A stretch of DNA of 64,000 nt from Bacillus sp. CH30_1T (lineage in GTDB: Bacteria; Bacillota; Bacilli; Bacillales; Bacillaceae_B). How positions within the stretch are numbered: position 1 is the first letter of the stretch; each line of letters starts with the position of its first letter. A program made the translations under genes and the position numbers. Below the pieces are notes generated by a model, which saw only the letters and a list, made by a program, of their open reading frames with translations, searched no databases and was not told the DNA's origin. This document shows, piece by piece, positions 13,050-27,120 of this stretch. The stretch is taken from positions 1 through 64,000 of the forward strand of contig NZ_VTUY01000007.1 of assembly GCF_008364765.1 (NCBI RefSeq), in the 5' to 3' direction.

Positions 13050-13262
13050 TTGGGTGCGATAGAAATCAGGCAGGTCTCCTGGCTCATGGTCATTGCTTGC
13101 TGCACCTTCCCATGCACATTAGCACAGTGGTTTTTATACAGTTCACTTCCATTTACAGTGGCGGGACCGCGTTGGAATTACACCAACTTCCCTATTATGA
13201 AGCGAAGAAGTATCGTCACTTCCGCTTCACCTGATCTCATGTCGTATGTAATTATTCCGTTC
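13050..13262 (-). ncRNA. Adenosylcobalamin (B12) riboswitch
   Basis: On the minus strand I read GGGAAGTTGGTG (13192-13181) and ACGCGGTCCCGCCACTG ending at 13156. The B12 box, AGCCAGGAGACCTGCC, is at 13084-13069. These are the conserved core elements of the cobalamin riboswitch in the right order and spacing. The aptamer sits about 80 bases before a terminator and about 150 before the btuF start, so binding of adenosylcobalamin should stop transcription of the ten-gene operon. Outer limits are approximate. Confidence 0.95.
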
Positions 13263-19356: not shown

Positions 19357-20085
19357 ATGTTCCAGGCTGCTTTTTGGGGAGGAATTACAAGTTTATCCCT
19401 ACTAATCGGTGCTGTTATGGGGATTTATTTGCACATATCAAAACGAATTGTCGCTTATATCATGGCATTGGGAACGGGGTTGATCATAGGTTCTGCAACC
19501 TTTGATTTACTAAGTGAGGCAGAAGGGAAAGCGAACCTGCTCTATCTCACATCTATGTTCTTACTAGGGGCGCTCATATTCACTCTTTTCGAAATCTTCA
19601 TTTCAAAAAAAGGTGGAAGTGAAAGAAAGAGGTCAAAGAAGAATCCCCATGGACACTCAGGATTAGCTATATATGTAGGAACCATAATGGATGCAATACC
19701 TGAATCCATCATTATTGGAGTCAGCTTTATAGGAGACCAACCAATACAATGGGTGTTTATCATCGCCATTTTCATCAGTAACTTACCTGAATCATTATCA
19801 AGCAGTATTGGCTTCAAGCTTGATCAATATAGTACAAGTAAAATTCTTACCCTTTGGGGAAGCGTAGTCGTCCTCTCATCCCTTAGCTCATTGCTCGGGT
19901 ATACACTCTTACAGGATGCCTCGGAAAGCATATCTTACATAATTGGAGCGTTCGGGGCAGGGGGATTATTAGCTATGGTATCCTCTACGATGCTGCCAGA
20001 GGCGTTTGAAGAAGGCGGACCCATTGTCGGATTTTTATCTTCTTTAGGAATCATACTTTCTTATATACTGACAAACCTGTCGTAA
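19357..20085 (+). CDS. ZIP-like metal transporter
   Basis: Eight-segment membrane protein of 242 residues. Motifs DAIPESIIIG, NLPESLSSS and MLPEAFEEGGP resemble the metal-site helices of ZIP-family transporters. The usual histidines of those helices are largely absent. A histidine-containing loop (KKNPHGHSG) lies between segments three and four. ATG at 19357 follows GGGGGTG. Earlier in-frame codons lack a ribosome site. It converges on the MutS2-like gene through a shared terminator. Zinc or iron transport is only a family-based guess. Confidence 0.7.
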   Translation: MFQAAFWGGITSLSLLIGAVMGIYLHISKRIVAYIMALGTGLIIGSATFDLLSEAEGKANLLYLTSMFLLGALIFTLFEIFISKKGGSERKRSKKNPHGHSGLAIYVGTIMDAIPESIIIGVSFIGDQPIQWVFIIAIFISNLPESLSSSIGFKLDQYSTSKILTLWGSVVVLSSLSSLLGYTLLQDASESISYIIGAFGAGGLLAMVSSTMLPEAFEEGGPIVGFLSSLGIILSYILTNLS

Positions 20086-20114
20086 ACCATTTCCTTTTAA
20101 TCCCTTTTGGCATC

Positions 20115-20156
20115 GTAAAAAACGCCCTGAAGCATTCGCTTAAGGACGTTTTTTAC
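20115..20156. terminator. Bidirectional terminator
   Basis: GTAAAAAACG and CGTTTTTTAC form the base of a long hairpin between the convergent ZIP-like and MutS2-like genes. It has T runs on both strands and ends 3 bases from the mutS2-like stop. Confidence 0.85.
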
Positions 20157-20158
20157 GT

Positions 20159-22093
20159 TTATTCGTCATGATTTATGGTTAAACCCTCAACAAATCGTTT
20201 TCCCATCAGCTTAGCTTTTTTCCTGTTTTCTTTACTGTTAAAGATAATATCAAAATCATAATCATCGGGGTATAGCTCTTTCGCCGAAACATAAAGATCC
20301 AGACGTTTATGATTAATAATTCTTTTTTCACCCTTAATTTGCACCGTGTAATCTCCTCTATCATCTGGTCCTTCATATACAATCCCGAATTCTCCACTCG
20401 TTGAAATCTTAACATTATCACCTATACTAAATAATTGAACTCCATTCTCCCCCTTTGATGAAGATTTACTATGGTTCCTTTTTTTATATTTGTTTACGAT
20501 AACCTGCTTTTCCATTTCCTTCTTCGCATGATAATCGATTTCTCCCAGGTCATAGCATTTCTTTTCTCTATACGTAATTTCATGGGCTTTTTCAATGATC
20601 TCAGGGTGCATTCCCAGCTTTAATGCAATGGCAAATGCTTGACTCTCGCCTCCTTTACCCACTACGAGCTTATACGTAGGTTGTAATGTATCAATATTAA
20701 ATTCCATACTCCCGTTCACGAAGCCTTCATGCTCTTCTGCGAAATGCTTTATTTCACTGTAATGGGTAGTTGCGAGTATCGTGGCTCCCTTTTCATATAA
20801 TTGATCCAGAATGGCTGTGGCCAGCCCCATTCCTTCAAGTGGATCCGTACCGGAACCAAGCTCATCTAACAGAACCAAGGTATGATCATTTGTATCCTTT
20901 AATATATCGATAATATTTTTTATATGGGAGCTGAATGTGCTTAAATTTTGCTGAAGGCTTTGACCATCCCCTATATCTAAAAGAATATCTTGATAAATAC
21001 TGATTTCACTGCCCTTTTCTGCCGGAATATGAAGGCCGCATTGGGTCATGAGGGTGAGAAGGCCCACCGTTTTAATGGCGACTGTCTTACCTCCAGTATT
21101 AGGACCGGTTATGACTAATGCATGAAAATCCTCACCCATCTGAATGGATAGTGGTACTGCCTGTTTTCCAAGCAGTGGATGAACCGCATTTATTAAATGT
21201 ATTTGATGATTTTCATTTACTATGGCGCTTACTCCATCAATGGAACGGCTATACTTTGCTTTTGCAAATAGGACATCGTAATGCACCATGGTCTCAATCG
21301 CCAGCTTTAATTGTGCTTCATACGTTTGAACCAGCCCTGTTAGCGCCCAGAGGATGTTCTCAACTTCACGGTCTTCCTCAAGTTTATAATATAAAAGCTG
21401 ATCTTGTTGAATGCTTAATTCCTCAGGCTCAATATAGAGAGTCGATCCTGAAGCAGATGAATCCAATACGGCTCCTTTCATTTTTCCTTTATATTCTTTC
21501 TTGATGGGGAGAACATACCTGCCATTTCTCTGACTGACAATCGATTCTTGTAGGTATGATTTATATTTAGCTGACTTTACAATCGCTTGGATTTTATCCT
21601 TTAACCGATCCTCTTGAATCCCCATTTGTTTTCTAATCCTTAACAACTCTTTACTGGCGTGATCATCTACTCTTCCATTACGGATGCATCGATTGATTTC
21701 TTCTCCAATCTCAGGGATCTCTTCAATTGAATAAACATATGAAGATACCCTTGGAGCCACCCATTTTTTATCCTCCATGAATTTTTTAATTTTTTTACAC
21801 GCATCTAGAAAATAATAGAGGCTTGTAAATTGATCTGGTTTCAAAGGCACCCCTTTATTCAGGTTTGCTACAATGTTTTCAACGCCATCCAAAGCGTGAA
21901 TCGGTATACTTGCACTTTTTTCCAGGATACTTACAGCTTCCGTTACTTCACCTAGACGCATTTCAATTTGGCGTTTGTTGATGGATGGCATTATATTCAT
22001 TAATTCCTTTTTCCCCTCTTCTGTAAGGGCATACCGTGTCAATTCTTCCTTCACTTTGTTAAATTCTAATGTTTGAAAAGTCTTTTTGTTCAA
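20159..22093 (-). CDS. MutS2 paralogue without Smr domain
   Basis: MutS-family ATPase of 644 residues with MutS2-type core and clamp. Walker A GPNTGGKT is at about 330, and Walker B with LLDELGSGTDPLEG at about 405. The C-terminus ends in a basic linker and a short domain (GEKRIINHKRLDLYVSAKEL), with no Smr nuclease domain. Full-length MutS2 (about 780 residues) splits collided ribosomes or acts on recombination, so this is a separate paralogue. I chose TTG at 22093 (NKKTFQTLEFNKVKEEL) because GGAGGA lies 7 bases upstream. The ATG at 22108 overlaps that site. A long leader with two terminators precedes it. Confidence 0.88.
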   Translation of the reverse strand: MNKKTFQTLEFNKVKEELTRYALTEEGKKELMNIMPSINKRQIEMRLGEVTEAVSILEKSASIPIHALDGVENIVANLNKGVPLKPDQFTSLYYFLDACKKIKKFMEDKKWVAPRVSSYVYSIEEIPEIGEEINRCIRNGRVDDHASKELLRIRKQMGIQEDRLKDKIQAIVKSAKYKSYLQESIVSQRNGRYVLPIKKEYKGKMKGAVLDSSASGSTLYIEPEELSIQQDQLLYYKLEEDREVENILWALTGLVQTYEAQLKLAIETMVHYDVLFAKAKYSRSIDGVSAIVNENHQIHLINAVHPLLGKQAVPLSIQMGEDFHALVITGPNTGGKTVAIKTVGLLTLMTQCGLHIPAEKGSEISIYQDILLDIGDGQSLQQNLSTFSSHIKNIIDILKDTNDHTLVLLDELGSGTDPLEGMGLATAILDQLYEKGATILATTHYSEIKHFAEEHEGFVNGSMEFNIDTLQPTYKLVVGKGGESQAFAIALKLGMHPEIIEKAHEITYREKKCYDLGEIDYHAKKEMEKQVIVNKYKKRNHSKSSSKGENGVQLFSIGDNVKISTSGEFGIVYEGPDDRGDYTVQIKGEKRIINHKRLDLYVSAKELYPDDYDFDIIFNSKENRKKAKLMGKRFVEGLTINHDE

Positions 22094-22110
22094 TGTTTTC
22101 TCCTCCATAT

Positions 22111-22149
22111 AAAAAAATAGACCACAACGAACAATGTCCATTGTGGTCT
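22111..22149 (-). terminator. Second leader terminator, just before the MutS2-like gene
   Basis: Minus strand AGACCACAA and TTGTGGTCT form a 9-bp stem with a 13-base loop, followed by ATTTTTTT. It ends 3 bases from the ATGGAGGAG ribosome-site region. Inside it ACAATG and CATTGT could form a rival small hairpin. Confidence 0.78.
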
Positions 22150-22270
22150 TACTCACTTGTATACTGACTTACCAATAATAATCGCATGTGTCTACGTATC
22201 TACGTAAAACGTGAATCGTTCATAACTTGAAGTTAGAAACGACAACACAGATTTCCCGATTCATGTACAC

Positions 22271-22300
22271 AAAAAGAGCTGTGCACAAAGACACAGCTCT
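22271..22300 (-). terminator. First leader terminator of the MutS2-like gene
   Basis: Minus strand AGAGCTGTG and CACAGCTCT form a perfect 9-bp stem with an 8-base loop, followed by TTTTTG. It lies about 180 bases upstream of the coding start and 190 after the promoter, a position fit for premature termination. Confidence 0.82.
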
Positions 22301-22332
22301 CCTATTAAAGGGTTGAGTATGCTATGACCATT

Positions 22333-22440
22333 GTTCTTAACTACACTTTGAAGGCAAAGCTAAATAAGCTTCTTTAATAACCTGTTTTTAAGGTTATTGC
22401 CTGCAAAATGTCCGTATTCATTTCACGGTTAGTTAAGAAC
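22333..22440 (-). ncRNA. Structured leader element (three-way junction) of the MutS2-like gene
   Basis: A perfect 11-bp closing helix joins GTTCTTAACTA (22440-22430, minus strand) with TAGTTAAGAAC (22343-22333). Inside, AGGCA/TGCCT (22402-22398 with 22356-22352) encloses two hairpins: AATAACCT/AGGTTATT and AAGCT/AGCTT. A small CCGT/ACGG hairpin is also possible. The 5' arm overlaps the end of a 7-codon leader frame. I recognise no known riboswitch consensus. It sits between a promoter and a terminator. Confidence 0.7.
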
Positions 22441-22452
22441 GACACCTAACAT
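22429..22452 (-). CDS. Putative 7-residue leader peptide
   Basis: ATG at 22452 starts MLGVVLN followed by TAA. AAAGGGAG lies 8 bases upstream. The last three codons and the stop make the 5' arm of the 11-bp closing helix, so a ribosome stalled here would block that helix. This arrangement resembles leader peptides of antibiotic-inducible genes. Translation is not proven, and the frame is short enough to arise by chance. Confidence 0.45.
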   Translation of the reverse strand: MLGVVLN

Positions 22453-22493
22453 AAAACATACTCCCTTTGTATACAGTAATTTAATTCATGAAT

Positions 22494-22522
22494 AGTTTAC
22501 AATGTAGTGGATTCATTGTCAA
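22494..22522 (-). promoter_or_regulatory. Sigma-A promoter of the MutS2-like leader
   Basis: Minus strand: TTGACA (22522-22517), 17-bp spacer, TAAACT (22499-22494). This would start transcription about 35 bases before the leader peptide and roughly 400 before the gene. Confidence 0.7.
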
Positions 22523-22526
22523 TAGG

Positions 22527-22652
22527 CTATTTTTTCCATTGAAAACGGATAAAGCAACCGACACAGAATCCCCCAAGCGCGATGGAGGCTGCAAATAATA
22601 CTATTCCTGAGAAAAGGTAGAATCCTGTGCTCCATCCAGCCAGAGCACTCAT
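22527..22652 (-). CDS. Small single-pass membrane protein (41 residues)
   Basis: MSALAGWSTGFYLFSGIVLF begins a mostly hydrophobic 41-residue protein with a small, Gly/Ala-rich membrane segment and a positively charged end (FIRFQWKK). AGGAGGAGCAATC precedes the ATG, an excellent ribosome site. The stop lies five bases before the promoter of the downstream leader. I do not recognise the family. It may be co-transcribed with the ykvA-like gene upstream. Confidence 0.6.
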   Translation of the reverse strand: MSALAGWSTGFYLFSGIVLFAASIALGGFCVGCFIRFQWKK

Positions 22653-22775
22653 GATTGCTCCTCCTAAGAAATCACGGCAATCATGTTGTTAAACCTCTGC
22701 TGATTCCGGTTTTTATTATGATTGCTAGTTTGCCTTTATTATTTAGCAAGTTCTGCCAGTAGTGTAGTAATTCGA

Positions 22776-23054
22776 TCATTTCTTGTATTCATAGCGATTC
22801 TTTAATTCCTCAGGAGCCATCTTAACGATAAGCTGAAGCACAAACGTAAATACAGCAATATCATCTACAATTCCAAATAAAACAAAAACATCGGGAATCA
22901 AATCAAAAGGCAGCCAGAAATAAACGGCTACAATTCCTAACGACAATACCTTCTTAAAAACCGAAACCTCTTTCGATCGAAAGAAGTCAACCAAAAACGG
23001 AACCGATTTCCGAATATTAAAAAGAAACCTTACCCGCTTCATAAACCTCATCAT
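22776..23054 (-). CDS. YkvA-family (DUF1232) membrane protein
   Basis: The 92-residue protein carries the DUF1232 core FWLPFDLIPDVFVLFGIVDDIAV, a membrane-inserting segment with conserved acidic residues, followed by a short helical tail. Function is unknown in the family. The start at 23054 has only a weak site (GGTGATGAG). A second ATG follows directly. It is transcribed away from the ABC-F gene, with about 270 bases between the two starts. Confidence 0.85.
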   Translation of the reverse strand: MMRFMKRVRFLFNIRKSVPFLVDFFRSKEVSVFKKVLSLGIVAVYFWLPFDLIPDVFVLFGIVDDIAVFTFVLQLIVKMAPEELKNRYEYKK

Positions 23055-23282
23055 TCGTCTCTCATCACCAATCTTTTTTTATAACGTTAGCATAGCAAAC
23101 TAAATTAGGAAAGAATTTATCGTATCTATCAGCATCTGCAAGATTTTCGGCTCATTTCCTTCAAGCGGTAGAGAACCCACATCCCCCCACCCTTTCATTC
23201 GAAATCCTTTATCCGCTTATGTAAATAGCCGGTAAATTTCTCCCTGTTCCGGCTAACACTCTATCTTTTTAGCATACTCGCG

Positions 23283-23291
23283 TGTTATAAT
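23283..23291 (+). promoter_or_regulatory. Extended -10 promoter of the ABC-F gene
   Basis: TGTTATAAT (TG at 23283-23284, TATAAT at 23286-23291) gives an extended -10. No good -35 lies 17 bp upstream. It is about 34 bases before the start codon. A hairpin AGCCGG/CCGGCT lies upstream at about 23226-23255. Confidence 0.5.
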
Positions 23292-23303
23292 CTTTTAGAT
23301 TGA

Positions 23304-24926
<1,623 letters not shown>

Positions 24927-24940
24927 TGTGAACCAGAAAA

Positions 24941-24971
24941 AGCAGGCAGCCGGATGGCACCTGCTTTTTTT
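24941..24971 (+). terminator. Terminator of the ABC-F gene
   Basis: AGCAGG pairs with CCTGCT across a 13-base loop with partial inner pairing, followed by seven T residues. It starts 14 bases after the stop. Confidence 0.82.
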
Positions 24972-24990
24972 CATTCCTCGCTACAAACGG

Positions 24991-27120
24991 TCAATCATAT
25001 TGACCATGTTTAACCAAGTAGCCTTTTATCTGAAAATAGCCTATTTTTTTCGGTAATTCTTCTTTAATGGGCTTTAAGAGGTCCGTCCCTACTTTCTGGA
25101 CTGCGTCTTCGATAAGTGTTTCTTCTTCTTCTGTAAAGAGGATGGTCCAGTCATTTGTGATGCCTTCCTGATAGGCACGGATAATGTGATTTTCAATCGT
25201 TGCTGTACTCATACCCCGTTCTTTCGCAATTTTTTTTATATCCAAGTTATCTTTGAATAACTCATAGCTGATTAAATGGGACGCTGTGTCAGAGTGACTT
25301 GTCTTCCGTGATTGCGAAGGCTTGACGACCTCAACTTGATGTTCAGGATTCTCACGTAAAAAAACGGAAATTTCGTTTATGAATATTTCACCATACCGAT
25401 TCAGCTTGTTTTCACCGACTCCGCTAACCTGCAGGAATTCCTCTGATGTTTTCGGCATCTTAACACACATGTCCTGAAGCGACTTATCGGAGAAAATAAC
25501 GAAAGGTGGAACTCCTTCTGAATCTGCAATCGATTTACGGAGTGTTCGCAAGGTCTGGAACAAGCCATCTTCTTTAGGGATGATCGCCGAAACAGTAGGC
25601 TGGACCTTCCTCGTTACGCTTCTTTCCCCCATTAACACCTCTTTGCCTTTTGATGAAACTTTCAGGATAGGAAAGCTCCCCCCCTCGACTTGTATCACCC
25701 CCTCTGAAATCAAGTAATCGATGAATAGACCGACATCCTTCTGAGATTGCTCCTTCATTAATCCATATGTGGAAAGCCGATCGAATCCCCATTCCAGGAT
25801 CTTTTTGTTCTTTGACCCCGTTAGTACACCGCTGATGAGTGAGGTTCCAAATCTTTCATTCATTCGCATCATACAGGATAATACCATTTGTGCCTCTCTC
25901 GTTACATCCTCAGATTCCCTATCATCCAAGCAATTGCTGCAATGACCGCATGCTTCCTCTACATGTTCACCAAAATACGCCAAAATGTAGTTCTGCAGGC
26001 ATGCTTCTGTATGGACAAAGTCGACCATTTCGCGTAATTTCTGCATCTCATTATCATGTAATTCCTGATTAACGATATTCTGGTCAATGATATACCGCTG
26101 TGTCTGGATATCCTGAGGTGAAAATAATAAGACACATTCGCTGTCCACTCCATCACGACCCGCCCTGCCAGCCTCTTGATAGTATCCCTCCATATTCTTC
26201 GGAATTTGATAATGAATCACAAAGCGTACATTTGATTTATTTATCCCCATCCCAAATGCATTGGTCGCAATCATGATTGTAATGGAATCATTCAGGAAGG
26301 CTTCCTGCTGTTCCTGCCTTACTGTGTCAGACAGCCCGCCATGATATTTCCCGACGGATAATCCCTTTTTCTCAAGATACATATAAAGGTTTTCAACTTC
26401 CTTCCGTGTAGCACAGTAAATGATACCGGAATGCTGATGATTCTTTTGTACATACCTTTCTACCCAACGCTTACGATCTTCACCTTTTACAACCTGGAAG
26501 AACAAATTCGTCCGTTGAAAACCAGTTAATACTTTATATTGATCTGGAATGTGTAAATGATGAAGGATATCAGCTTGTACTTGTGGAGTTGCAGTTGCGG
26601 TCAATGCAAGAATGGTGGGCTTTGATTGTAGTTGATTAACAGCGTTATAAATCCCTAAATAGCTTGGCCTGAAATCATGACCCCATTGGGATAAACAATG
26701 CGCTTCGTCAACAGCTACTAGGGGGATGGGTAAAGAATTGAGGAATCGAATAAACCCAAATGATTCCAATCTCTCAGGAGCAATATAAACGAGTTTGTAT
26801 TCACCTAAGGAAATATCTTCCATCCTGGTCTCTACTTCACTATTCGATAGCGTACTATTAATGTAGGTTGCTGGAATCCCTTGATGAAGTAACGAATCCA
26901 CCTGGTCTTTCATTAAAGATATGAGTGGAGAAATAACAAGTGTAACTCCATCAAGCATTAGAGCAGGAATTTGGTAACAGAGCGATTTCCCTCCTCCTGT
27001 CGGCATGATCCCTACTGTGTTTTTCCCATCAAGTATGTATTCAATAATACTCGCTTGTCCATCTCTGAATTCGTCGTATCCAAAGTACTGCTTTAATACT
27101 TGTTTTGCTTCTTCAATCAC
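24991..27120 (-). CDS. recQ: ATP-dependent DNA helicase RecQ
   Basis: 3'-5' DNA helicase of 709 residues used in recombination and repair. Order: helicase core with FRDGQ, PTGGGKSLCYQ and VDEAHCLSQWGHDFRP, then motif VI (QEAGRAGRDG). A zinc region with four cysteines follows (CLQNYILAYFGEHVEEACGHC...C), then winged helix, HRDC domain (about 525-600) and a C-terminal HTH segment (ERGMSTATIENHII). The start is GTG at 27120 because GGGAGGGG is 5 bases upstream. A TTG five codons earlier overlaps that site. It converges with the ABC-F gene. Confidence 0.95.
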   Translation of the reverse strand: MIEEAKQVLKQYFGYDEFRDGQASIIEYILDGKNTVGIMPTGGGKSLCYQIPALMLDGVTLVISPLISLMKDQVDSLLHQGIPATYINSTLSNSEVETRMEDISLGEYKLVYIAPERLESFGFIRFLNSLPIPLVAVDEAHCLSQWGHDFRPSYLGIYNAVNQLQSKPTILALTATATPQVQADILHHLHIPDQYKVLTGFQRTNLFFQVVKGEDRKRWVERYVQKNHQHSGIIYCATRKEVENLYMYLEKKGLSVGKYHGGLSDTVRQEQQEAFLNDSITIMIATNAFGMGINKSNVRFVIHYQIPKNMEGYYQEAGRAGRDGVDSECVLLFSPQDIQTQRYIIDQNIVNQELHDNEMQKLREMVDFVHTEACLQNYILAYFGEHVEEACGHCSNCLDDRESEDVTREAQMVLSCMMRMNERFGTSLISGVLTGSKNKKILEWGFDRLSTYGLMKEQSQKDVGLFIDYLISEGVIQVEGGSFPILKVSSKGKEVLMGERSVTRKVQPTVSAIIPKEDGLFQTLRTLRKSIADSEGVPPFVIFSDKSLQDMCVKMPKTSEEFLQVSGVGENKLNRYGEIFINEISVFLRENPEHQVEVVKPSQSRKTSHSDTASHLISYELFKDNLDIKKIAKERGMSTATIENHIIRAYQEGITNDWTILFTEEEETLIEDAVQKVGTDLLKPIKEELPKKIGYFQIKGYLVKHGQYD

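Follow-up and report, generated by a model that had tools for sequence, protein, structure and literature searches.

Within a window of 64,000 nucleotides (nt) from Bacillus sp. CH30_1T (contig NZ_VTUY01000007.1, positions 1 to 64,000), that is, the whole stretch of DNA analyzed here, we studied the leader of a gene encoding a paralogue of MutS2. The leader lies on the minus strand of a 4.9-Mb genome whose closest named relatives, as judged by the MutS2 paralogue gene, belong to Rossellomorea. On that strand it comprises, in order, a promoter, the Shine-Dalgarno (SD) sequence of a 7-codon upstream open reading frame (uORF), a branched structure closed by helix P1, two terminators (T1 and T2), a further SD and a gene starting with TTG. 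The elements were as follows, with the basis of each assignment given in brackets; papers are here and below cited from excerpts of their text, by PubMed Central (PMC) number.

22494..22522, minus strand: sigma-A-type promoter TTGACA-17-TAAACT (sequence match)
22461..22468, minus strand: SD of the uORF, AAAGGGAG, doubling as 5' strand of the basal helix P0 (SD in 75 of 75 distinct anchored relatives)
22429..22452, minus strand: uORF of 7 codons, MLGVVLN followed by a stop codon (reading frame and conservation)
22430..22440, minus strand: 5' arm of P1, GUUCUUAACUA, being uORF codons 5-8, proposed anti-antiterminator (folding, alignment)
22412..22428, minus strand: hairpin P2, within P1 (folding, alignment)
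22404..22411, minus strand: 5' strand of helix P4 (permutation test)
22376..22398, minus strand: hairpin P3, variable, proposed pause hairpin (folding, alignment)
22362..22367, minus strand: TTATTT, which fits the NusG-dependent pause motif TTNTTT (motif from PMC9226507)
22343..22350, minus strand: 3' strand of helix P4 (permutation test)
22333..22343, minus strand: 3' arm of P1, UAGUUAAGAAC (folding, alignment)
22321..22335, minus strand: proposed antiterminator strand, AACAAUGGUCAUAGC, complementary to portions of T1 and T2 (pairing tests)
22275..22300, minus strand: intrinsic terminator T1, with a U tract directly 3' (-15.1 kcal/mol)
22119..22149, minus strand: intrinsic terminator T2, with a U tract directly 3' (-19.2 kcal/mol)
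22100..22106, minus strand: SD of the gene, GGAGGAG (sequence match)
20159..22093, minus strand: gene for the MutS2 paralogue (type A), 644 amino acids, TTG start, MutS_V ATPase, without an Smr match (profile matches)

An original prediction for this DNA, made from the sequence, had described the promoter, the 7-codon frame with its ribosome site, a perfect 11-bp helix using the end of that frame as its 5' arm, and a strong terminator followed some 120 bases on by a second one just before the ribosome site of the gene. All of these were recovered at the same place: P1 is a perfect 11-bp helix (22440-22430 : 22343-22333), T1 and T2 are spaced by about 125 nt, and T2 is located immediately 5' of GGAGGAG and the TTG start at 22093. 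The partner strand of P0 is formed by the bases directly after the 3' arm of P1. The 231 nt reaching through T1 and beyond had a minimum free energy of -77.4 kcal/mol vs -47.3 for shuffled sequences (standard deviation 3.6, z -8.3, 0/200), and for the fold of the entire leader (z -7.1) none of 100 shuffles was as good. By the terminator rule of our script, T1 was found in 82, T2 in 84 and both in 81 of 85 leaders, such that intrinsic terminators stand ahead of the gene as they do in an attenuator. The 80 nt 5' of the uORF contained a promoter in 80 of 84 relatives, vs 15% of shuffles; promoter-type matches as such are not rare (11 within 20000-26000, vs 16.1 expected from shuffles).

The leader is single-copy in its genome, with three other matches of merely 18-28 nt, and a mobile repeat (miniature inverted-repeat transposable element) was rejected on those grounds; sub-threshold Rfam matches, e.g. 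to Enterococcus sRNA 1300 at 20.6 vs 48.8 bits, were taken as chance. Elsewhere in the window we noted a Cobalamin riboswitch (13052-13249, minus strand, 118.9 bits), and adjoining the leader, on the opposite strand and outside its control, an ABC-F gene (23325-24926, plus strand) having NF011646 as its best NCBIfam match, below cut-off.

Conservation of the leader and its linkage to the gene

When loci were collected solely on the basis of protein similarity, the uORF was found to precede the gene in records of Rossellomorea, Neobacillus, Mesobacillus, Peribacillus, Lederbergia, Heyndrickxia, Pontibacillus, Thalassobacillus, Evansella, Amphibacillus, Clostridium and Paenibacillus. The frame pattern was present at most 700 nt from the gene in 99 of 109 such loci (L009-L117, duplicates across two collections counted). 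Among the ten others, two had a leader match slightly further upstream (L035, L081), two had too short contig sequence (L076, L108) and six (L110-L113, L115, L116) gave protein matches ending at about residue 503-530, like those of ordinary MutS2. The conservation scan was anchored on GTTCTTAACT and the 3' arm; 15 of its 90 rows had no anchor, these being nine of the ten pattern-less loci together with six leaders whose arms have diverged (L057, L078, L084, L086, L088, L092), which were kept in the set of 85 leaders used for the terminators. The set for alignment and modelling consisted of 61 of the 83 distinct cores, after removal of near-identical leaders (at least 93%) and the very long L106.

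An ATG exactly 12 nt 5' of GUUCUUAACU, with an SD, was seen in all 75 distinct anchored leaders, their uORFs ending in TAA (72), TGA (2) or TAG (1); leader L092, outside the anchored 75, starts with GTG. Codons 2-4 of the uORF occurred in 19 versions among the 85 leaders, differing by genus (LGV, SVI, SAG, YLV, KVI, IEV, TGF), and the codons GTT CTT AAC were nearly invariant. With codons 2-4 variable and the length and last codons constant, it is the length and end of the frame that are kept, not the whole peptide. Apart from the frame and its SD, sequence conservation in the leader was mostly confined to the pairing arms, the TTATTT motif and a stretch AAU..AUA in P2; a TTNTTT was found 8-60 nt 5' of the arm in 72 of 85 leaders, compared with a mean of 20.7 and a maximum of 31 upon base shuffling. 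Relatives hence show helices and a leader frame conserved ahead of this gene, which is the result that the original prediction had named as supporting.

These data also bear upon a ligand-binding riboswitch with a three-way junction, in which the small frame would be incidental. The strong and complex fold (z -8.3) would suit it, but P3 and the loops vary while the kept bases are mostly those just listed, start codon and frame length are maintained in 75 of 75 leaders, and no Rfam family, whether riboswitch, T-box or other, matched the leader at its gathering score, in keeping with the earlier remark that no riboswitch of this sequence is known. We thus regard a riboswitch as very improbable. 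Judged by sequence comparison, the leader family is real and conserved; it is probably of a known mechanistic kind and new as a sequence family, absent from Rfam at threshold.

The linkage between leader and gene was analyzed using a pattern in DNA only, RTGN9GTTCTTAACTRA, independent of the protein, over 299 genomes of the order. It matched 93 of the genomes, at 99 places, and a protein search of the same genomes gave matches in 123, with 94 genes of type A (at least 48% identity), 28 of type B (38-42%) and one truncated copy, this grouping being our own. The pattern was located 229-699 nt 5' of 87 of the 94 type A genes and of none of the 28 type B genes; the remaining seven type A genes, read by eye, had MLSVILN (five), MLSVVLD (one), both followed by a stop codon, or a diverged frame (one). 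Twelve of the 99 matches were away from the gene: those in G045 and G151 precede truncated copies, that in G216 is by its letters the antisense of the 3' arm, five were in one genome (G053) and one in G263 with a stop as second codon (none of these regions was read), and in G177 and G273, which were read, no such gene was found behind the match. The twelfth match, in genome G042 (L148:501-1000), was a complete leader with no intact gene and, by eye, traces of a decayed bpsA-like frame behind it.

Pairing of the helices and the proposed switch

Since MAFFT failed to align the variable hairpins, RNAalifold on the whole alignment gave P1 alone, and the other pairings were instead evaluated by permutation, with each strand's own partner compared with partners permuted between species (5000 permutations). 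The inner helices covary. For P4 the own partner gave -11.9 vs -7.0 kcal/mol for the permuted ones (0/5000, n=80), for P0 the corresponding values were -10.96 vs -9.43 (0/5000), and the 3' arm paired with its own T1 at -11.35 vs -10.23 kcal/mol (0/5000). Within subgroups, the numbers of permutations equalling the own partner, out of 5000, were 0 for P4, 14 for P0, 13 for arm:T1 and 107 for arm:T2 in a mixed group; 103, 99 and 265 for P4, P0 and arm:T1 in Paenibacillus; and 286 for P4 and 3283 for P0 in Rossellomorea. P1, the predicted anti-antiterminator that contains the frame, had a probability above 0.5 in all 82 leaders computed, with its outermost pair broken or gapped in 3 of 61.

As equilibrium folding failed as proof of a switch, we adopted folding of the nascent transcript with shuffled controls, the RNA being cut in the terminator loop; masking here means that the uORF was covered to 12 nt past its stop. 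At the T1 loop, pairing of the arm with T1 rose from 0.17 in the free RNA to 0.69 upon masking, with a gain above 0.2 in 69 of 81 leaders, and at T2 the pairing rose from 0.03 to 0.48, with an increase in 78 of 84 leaders and a value of 0.17 for the shuffled control.

On these grounds, together with the conservation, we consider it likely that the leader is a transcription attenuator switched by ribosome stalling, of the kind known from vmlR and hflXr; a role in response to specific drugs, for leader or gene, is held with less confidence. In an unstressed cell, a ribosome would complete the 7-codon uORF and depart, whereupon codons 5-8 would pair with the 3' arm to form P1, with P0 closing it across the SD of the uORF itself; with the arm so occupied, T1 and T2 would end transcription. 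RNA polymerase would probably pause at TTATTT behind hairpin P3, keeping ribosome and polymerase in step. A ribosome stalled on the uORF would cover the 5' strands of P0 and P1, leaving the 3' strand AGUUAAGAACAAUGGUCAUAGC free to pair first with T1 and later with T2, each time once the first half of the terminator has been transcribed, and transcription would thereby enter the gene.

Several results weigh against this proposal. Equilibrium masking of the uORF, using transcripts holding the whole terminator, barely altered T1 (0.94 to 0.88) or T2 (0.957 to 0.952), and the nascent signal at T1 is modest because shuffled T1 arms, too, reach a pairing of 0.47 upon masking. T1 and T2 make use of overlapping bases of the arm, such that both may not be held together. 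Over all leaders, the arm:T2 pairing differed little from permuted partners (-14.24 vs -13.83 kcal/mol, 212/5000), in Paenibacillus it was not discriminated (2241/5000), and in Rossellomorea neither arm:T1 (2149) nor arm:T2 (3754 of 5000) was, because the sequences there are too similar to tell. The covariation in P1 is thin because the helix is nearly invariant, with one compensatory change among nine RNAalifold pairs (C-G to U-A, in L117). TTNTTT is missing at the expected place in 13 of 85 leaders, and in the protein the KOW/SH3-like stretch is a weak match (PF20297 MSSS, E 0.032, below the Pfam cut-off). With the effect slight at equilibrium and greater in nascent RNA, the switch is taken to be kinetic in our modelling, with the strand freed by a stalled ribosome capturing T1, and then T2, before closure; given the overlapping arm bases, these captures may be successive.

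The proposed attenuator can be compared, by description and not by alignment, with systems described in the excerpts. The vmlR leader of Bacillus subtilis has a uORF encoding MIN, an anti-antiterminator, an antiterminator and a NusG-dependent pause, for which the TTNTTT motif was named; it is switched by stalling on that uORF and induced by lincomycin (PMC9226507). Our leader resembles it in having a uORF within an anti-antiterminator stem, a proposed antiterminator, an intrinsic terminator, a TTNTTT site and a gene for a probably ribosome-directed ATPase, but differs in having 7 codons ending in VLN, two terminators and a MutS2-type gene instead of 3 codons, one terminator and an ABC-F gene. 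The leader of cplR is likewise switched by stalling on its uORF, MR[I/M] (PMC10201436). The hflXr leader of Listeria, rli80, is switched by stalling on a 14-residue uORF with RLR and controls a second copy of a splitting factor (PMC6310831); here, too, an extra copy of a ribosome-splitting factor would be under a uORF attenuator, though with a 7-codon uORF and MutS2 in place of HflX.

The same leader type before other genes

A covariance model (R1), trained exclusively on 61 type A leaders, gave 12 matches at E of at most 0.001 in 299 genomes of the phylum, with about 0.3 expected by chance if the rough E-values hold. Six were before type A-like genes (the window, L169-L172 and L176), three before exporter-type ABC transporters with the uORF MIKGVLK (L173-L175), two before ABC-F genes and one before a tet(M) gene (L179, uORF MRQGILK). 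The ABC-F uORFs were MFIHVLN in L177 and, by eye, a frame longer than 7 codons in L178, the gene products scoring 380.1 and 422.1 bits, respectively, above the cut-off of 380 for ribosomal-protection-like ABC-F. (All uORF peptides given in this section are followed by a stop codon.) The resemblance to leaders of ribosome-protection genes that had been suggested originally is thereby borne out among other Bacillota.

A pattern of the P1 arms only, with no start codon, matched 35 of 398 genomes of the phylum, partly at the same places as R1. A 7-codon frame was seen in 16 of the 30 loci read, before six type A, eight tet-type, one ABC-F and one ABC transporter gene, three of the six type A loci (L184-L186) being printed with an internal GTG start; the other 14 look like chance. 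All eight tet-type loci (L183, L188, L189, L190, L197, L198, L199, L200) had the uORF MRQGILK with an SD. Their best NCBIfam match was Tet(M) or the TetM/TetW family in seven and tet_protect, in an N-terminal piece only, in L200; as the loci stop within the genes, the scores fall below the cut-offs for whole proteins. In the seven loci computed among those with tet-type, ABC-F or ABC-transporter genes, the arm:terminator duplex reached -11.7 to -15.5 kcal/mol, whereas shuffling gave means between -3.9 and -7.8.

In 299 genomes of the class, R1 gave 60 matches in 52 genomes, of which 37 were read (26 new loci, 6 second copies and 5 read before). The new loci comprised 23 type A-like genes, two bpsA genes and one with a GNAT gene behind, and the second copies preceded bpsA (PF01861) in five cases and an APH-family gene in one. 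The bpsA loci, encoding a branched-chain polyamine synthase, were L233, L234, L236, L237, L238, L240 and L241, and the leader-like element 5' of the APH-family gene was that of L239. A possible reading of the leader before bpsA is a link of polyamines to translation stress.

The tet(M) loci invite comparison with the attenuator of that gene. In Tn916, the carrier of tet(M), tetracycline and other inhibitors of translation reportedly relieve attenuation (PMC9154091). Transcription attenuation would be common to both systems, and L183 has MRQGILK with an SD, P1-like arms and arm:terminator complementarity resembling those of our leader. Unlike here, the gene encodes a GTPase and the leader peptide named by Pfam is another, downstream frame of 28 codons (TetM_leader, PF08076). 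That frame, lacking a recognisable SD, is present in L183 and was not seen in the four other tet loci examined for it (L188, L197, L198, L199). For MRQGILK and six other uORF peptides we found no paper in the open PMC literature.

The L183 leader also matches Enterococcus sRNA 30 (RF02864) at 1515-1679, just after its MRQGILK frame at 1488-1511, and short transcripts are thus known for a relative, as would be expected if the leader chiefly yielded a free small RNA acting in trans. Action in cis is instead indicated by the linkage to the gene in 87 of 94 cases and by the alternative pairing of the arm with both terminators, and we find a role in trans highly unlikely. If the leader were an amino-acid attenuator responding to codons for valine, leucine or asparagine, the near invariance of GTT CTT AAC would be explained. 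However, P1 requires those very bases, the uORF of relatives terminates in ILK (before tet) or VLK (before an ABC transporter), and the genes controlled are not amino-acid genes, which together make such an attenuator hardly credible.

Type B genes, a sister group, had another 7-codon uORF in all nine regions read (L159-L167), with an arm ending in ACCTAC; the peptides were MSAVGSK, MSGVVSK, MSGVGIN, MSAVGTK and MSAVVVS. A second copy of the arm's complement was found directly 5' of the gene SD in four of the nine by pattern, with variant forms in others by eye. This suggests that the arm could pair with either the uORF or the second copy, as in a translation switch, which folding supports only in part: of the four regions checked with the uORF masked, the arm paired with the second copy in two (0.97, 0.83) and not in two (0.11, 0.08), and masking freed the gene SD little (0.67 to 0.51, 0.98 to 0.91, 0.28 to 0.38 and 0.99 to 0.97).

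We tentatively put forward, as a possibility somewhat more doubtful than not, that a dispersed translation-stress regulon in Bacillota is controlled by one ancient family of 7-codon uORF sensors (M-x-x-x-V/I-L-N/K-stop). Its genes would encode MutS2 proteins lacking Smr (a diverged leader form serving the sister group), ribosome protection proteins of the tet(M) type, ABC-F proteins, ABC transporters and BpsA. In that case, the MutS2 proteins lacking Smr would be an undescribed class of resistance factors that split ribosomes and are induced by drugs, and the 7-codon frame, not Pfam's 28-codon leader peptide, would act as the sensor for tet(M).

The MutS2 paralogue and its probable role

The protein encoded behind the leader scored 624 bits against TIGR01069 (cut-off 400), making it a member of the MutS2 family, and the same genome encodes a separate full-length MutS2 with 41% identity to it over 507 residues, in agreement with its initial designation as a paralogue. 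Its best matches in the PDB include chains of B. subtilis MutS2 of 785 residues (8qpp, 7qv3). The TIGR01069 match stops at model position 516 of 790, and no match to a C-terminal Smr domain was found in Pfam. Among 23 aligned relatives, the ATPase motifs TGPNTGGKT and DE...GTDP, which we take to be its Walker motifs, were invariant and a C-terminal tail, YPDDYDFD, was conserved. The paralogue thus keeps the core and ATPase of B. subtilis MutS2 and, unlike that protein as described in the excerpts, has no Smr match and a conserved tail of its own.

B. subtilis MutS2 splits ribosomes by its ATPase and is recruited to collisions by Smr and KOW domains, with the Smr domain aiding in locating collided ribosomes (PMC10897456). 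The original prediction had connected MutS2 proteins with rescue of collided ribosomes, and that connection stands for B. subtilis; as regards the paralogue, the absent Smr match taken together with the role of Smr in finding collisions indicates that collided ribosomes may not be its target. It is most likely a factor that splits or rescues ribosomes stopped by translation inhibitors, an inducible counterpart of MutS2 in the manner of HflXr to HflX, and the gene under the leader is probably an inducible ribosome-rescue or ribosome-splitting factor of stress or resistance. Among the papers listed from the open PMC literature on MutS2 in combination with leader peptide, uORF, splitting or term-seq, no such leader was seen in titles and abstracts.

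Induction of the leader, be it by an antibiotic or by any stall, is what we infer from its architecture. With the same attenuator, the signal could be a general slowing of translation or termination, brought about by cold, by starvation or by the lack of a rescue factor; the gene would then be one of housekeeping stress rescue and not of resistance. That codons 2-4 vary by genus and the stop is TAA, TGA or TAG, with no drug-specific arrest peptide such as RLR visible, agrees with this, as does the scarcity of the gene on plasmids, which is not typical of a mobile resistance gene: 16 of 72,556 plasmid records matched it at 1e-60, several by a partial stretch as ordinary MutS2 would. The occurrence of the leader type before tet(M)-type, ABC-F, ABC-transporter and APH-like genes favours drug sensing instead, as does the reported response of Tn916, whereas its occurrence before bpsA does not. 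On balance we hold a purely general signal with a housekeeping gene to be unlikely, and continue to favour an attenuator governing a stress or resistance factor.

One proposed sensor design joins the MutS2 paralogue to genes of the tet(M), ABC-F and ABC-transporter types and to bpsA. If the reading proposed here is true, MutS2 has an inducible counterpart possibly acting on drug-halted ribosomes, as the second such case after HflX and HflXr; occurrences of the leader would then predict new resistance or stress genes, and the identity of the small frame by which tet(M) responds to the drug would become a question again.

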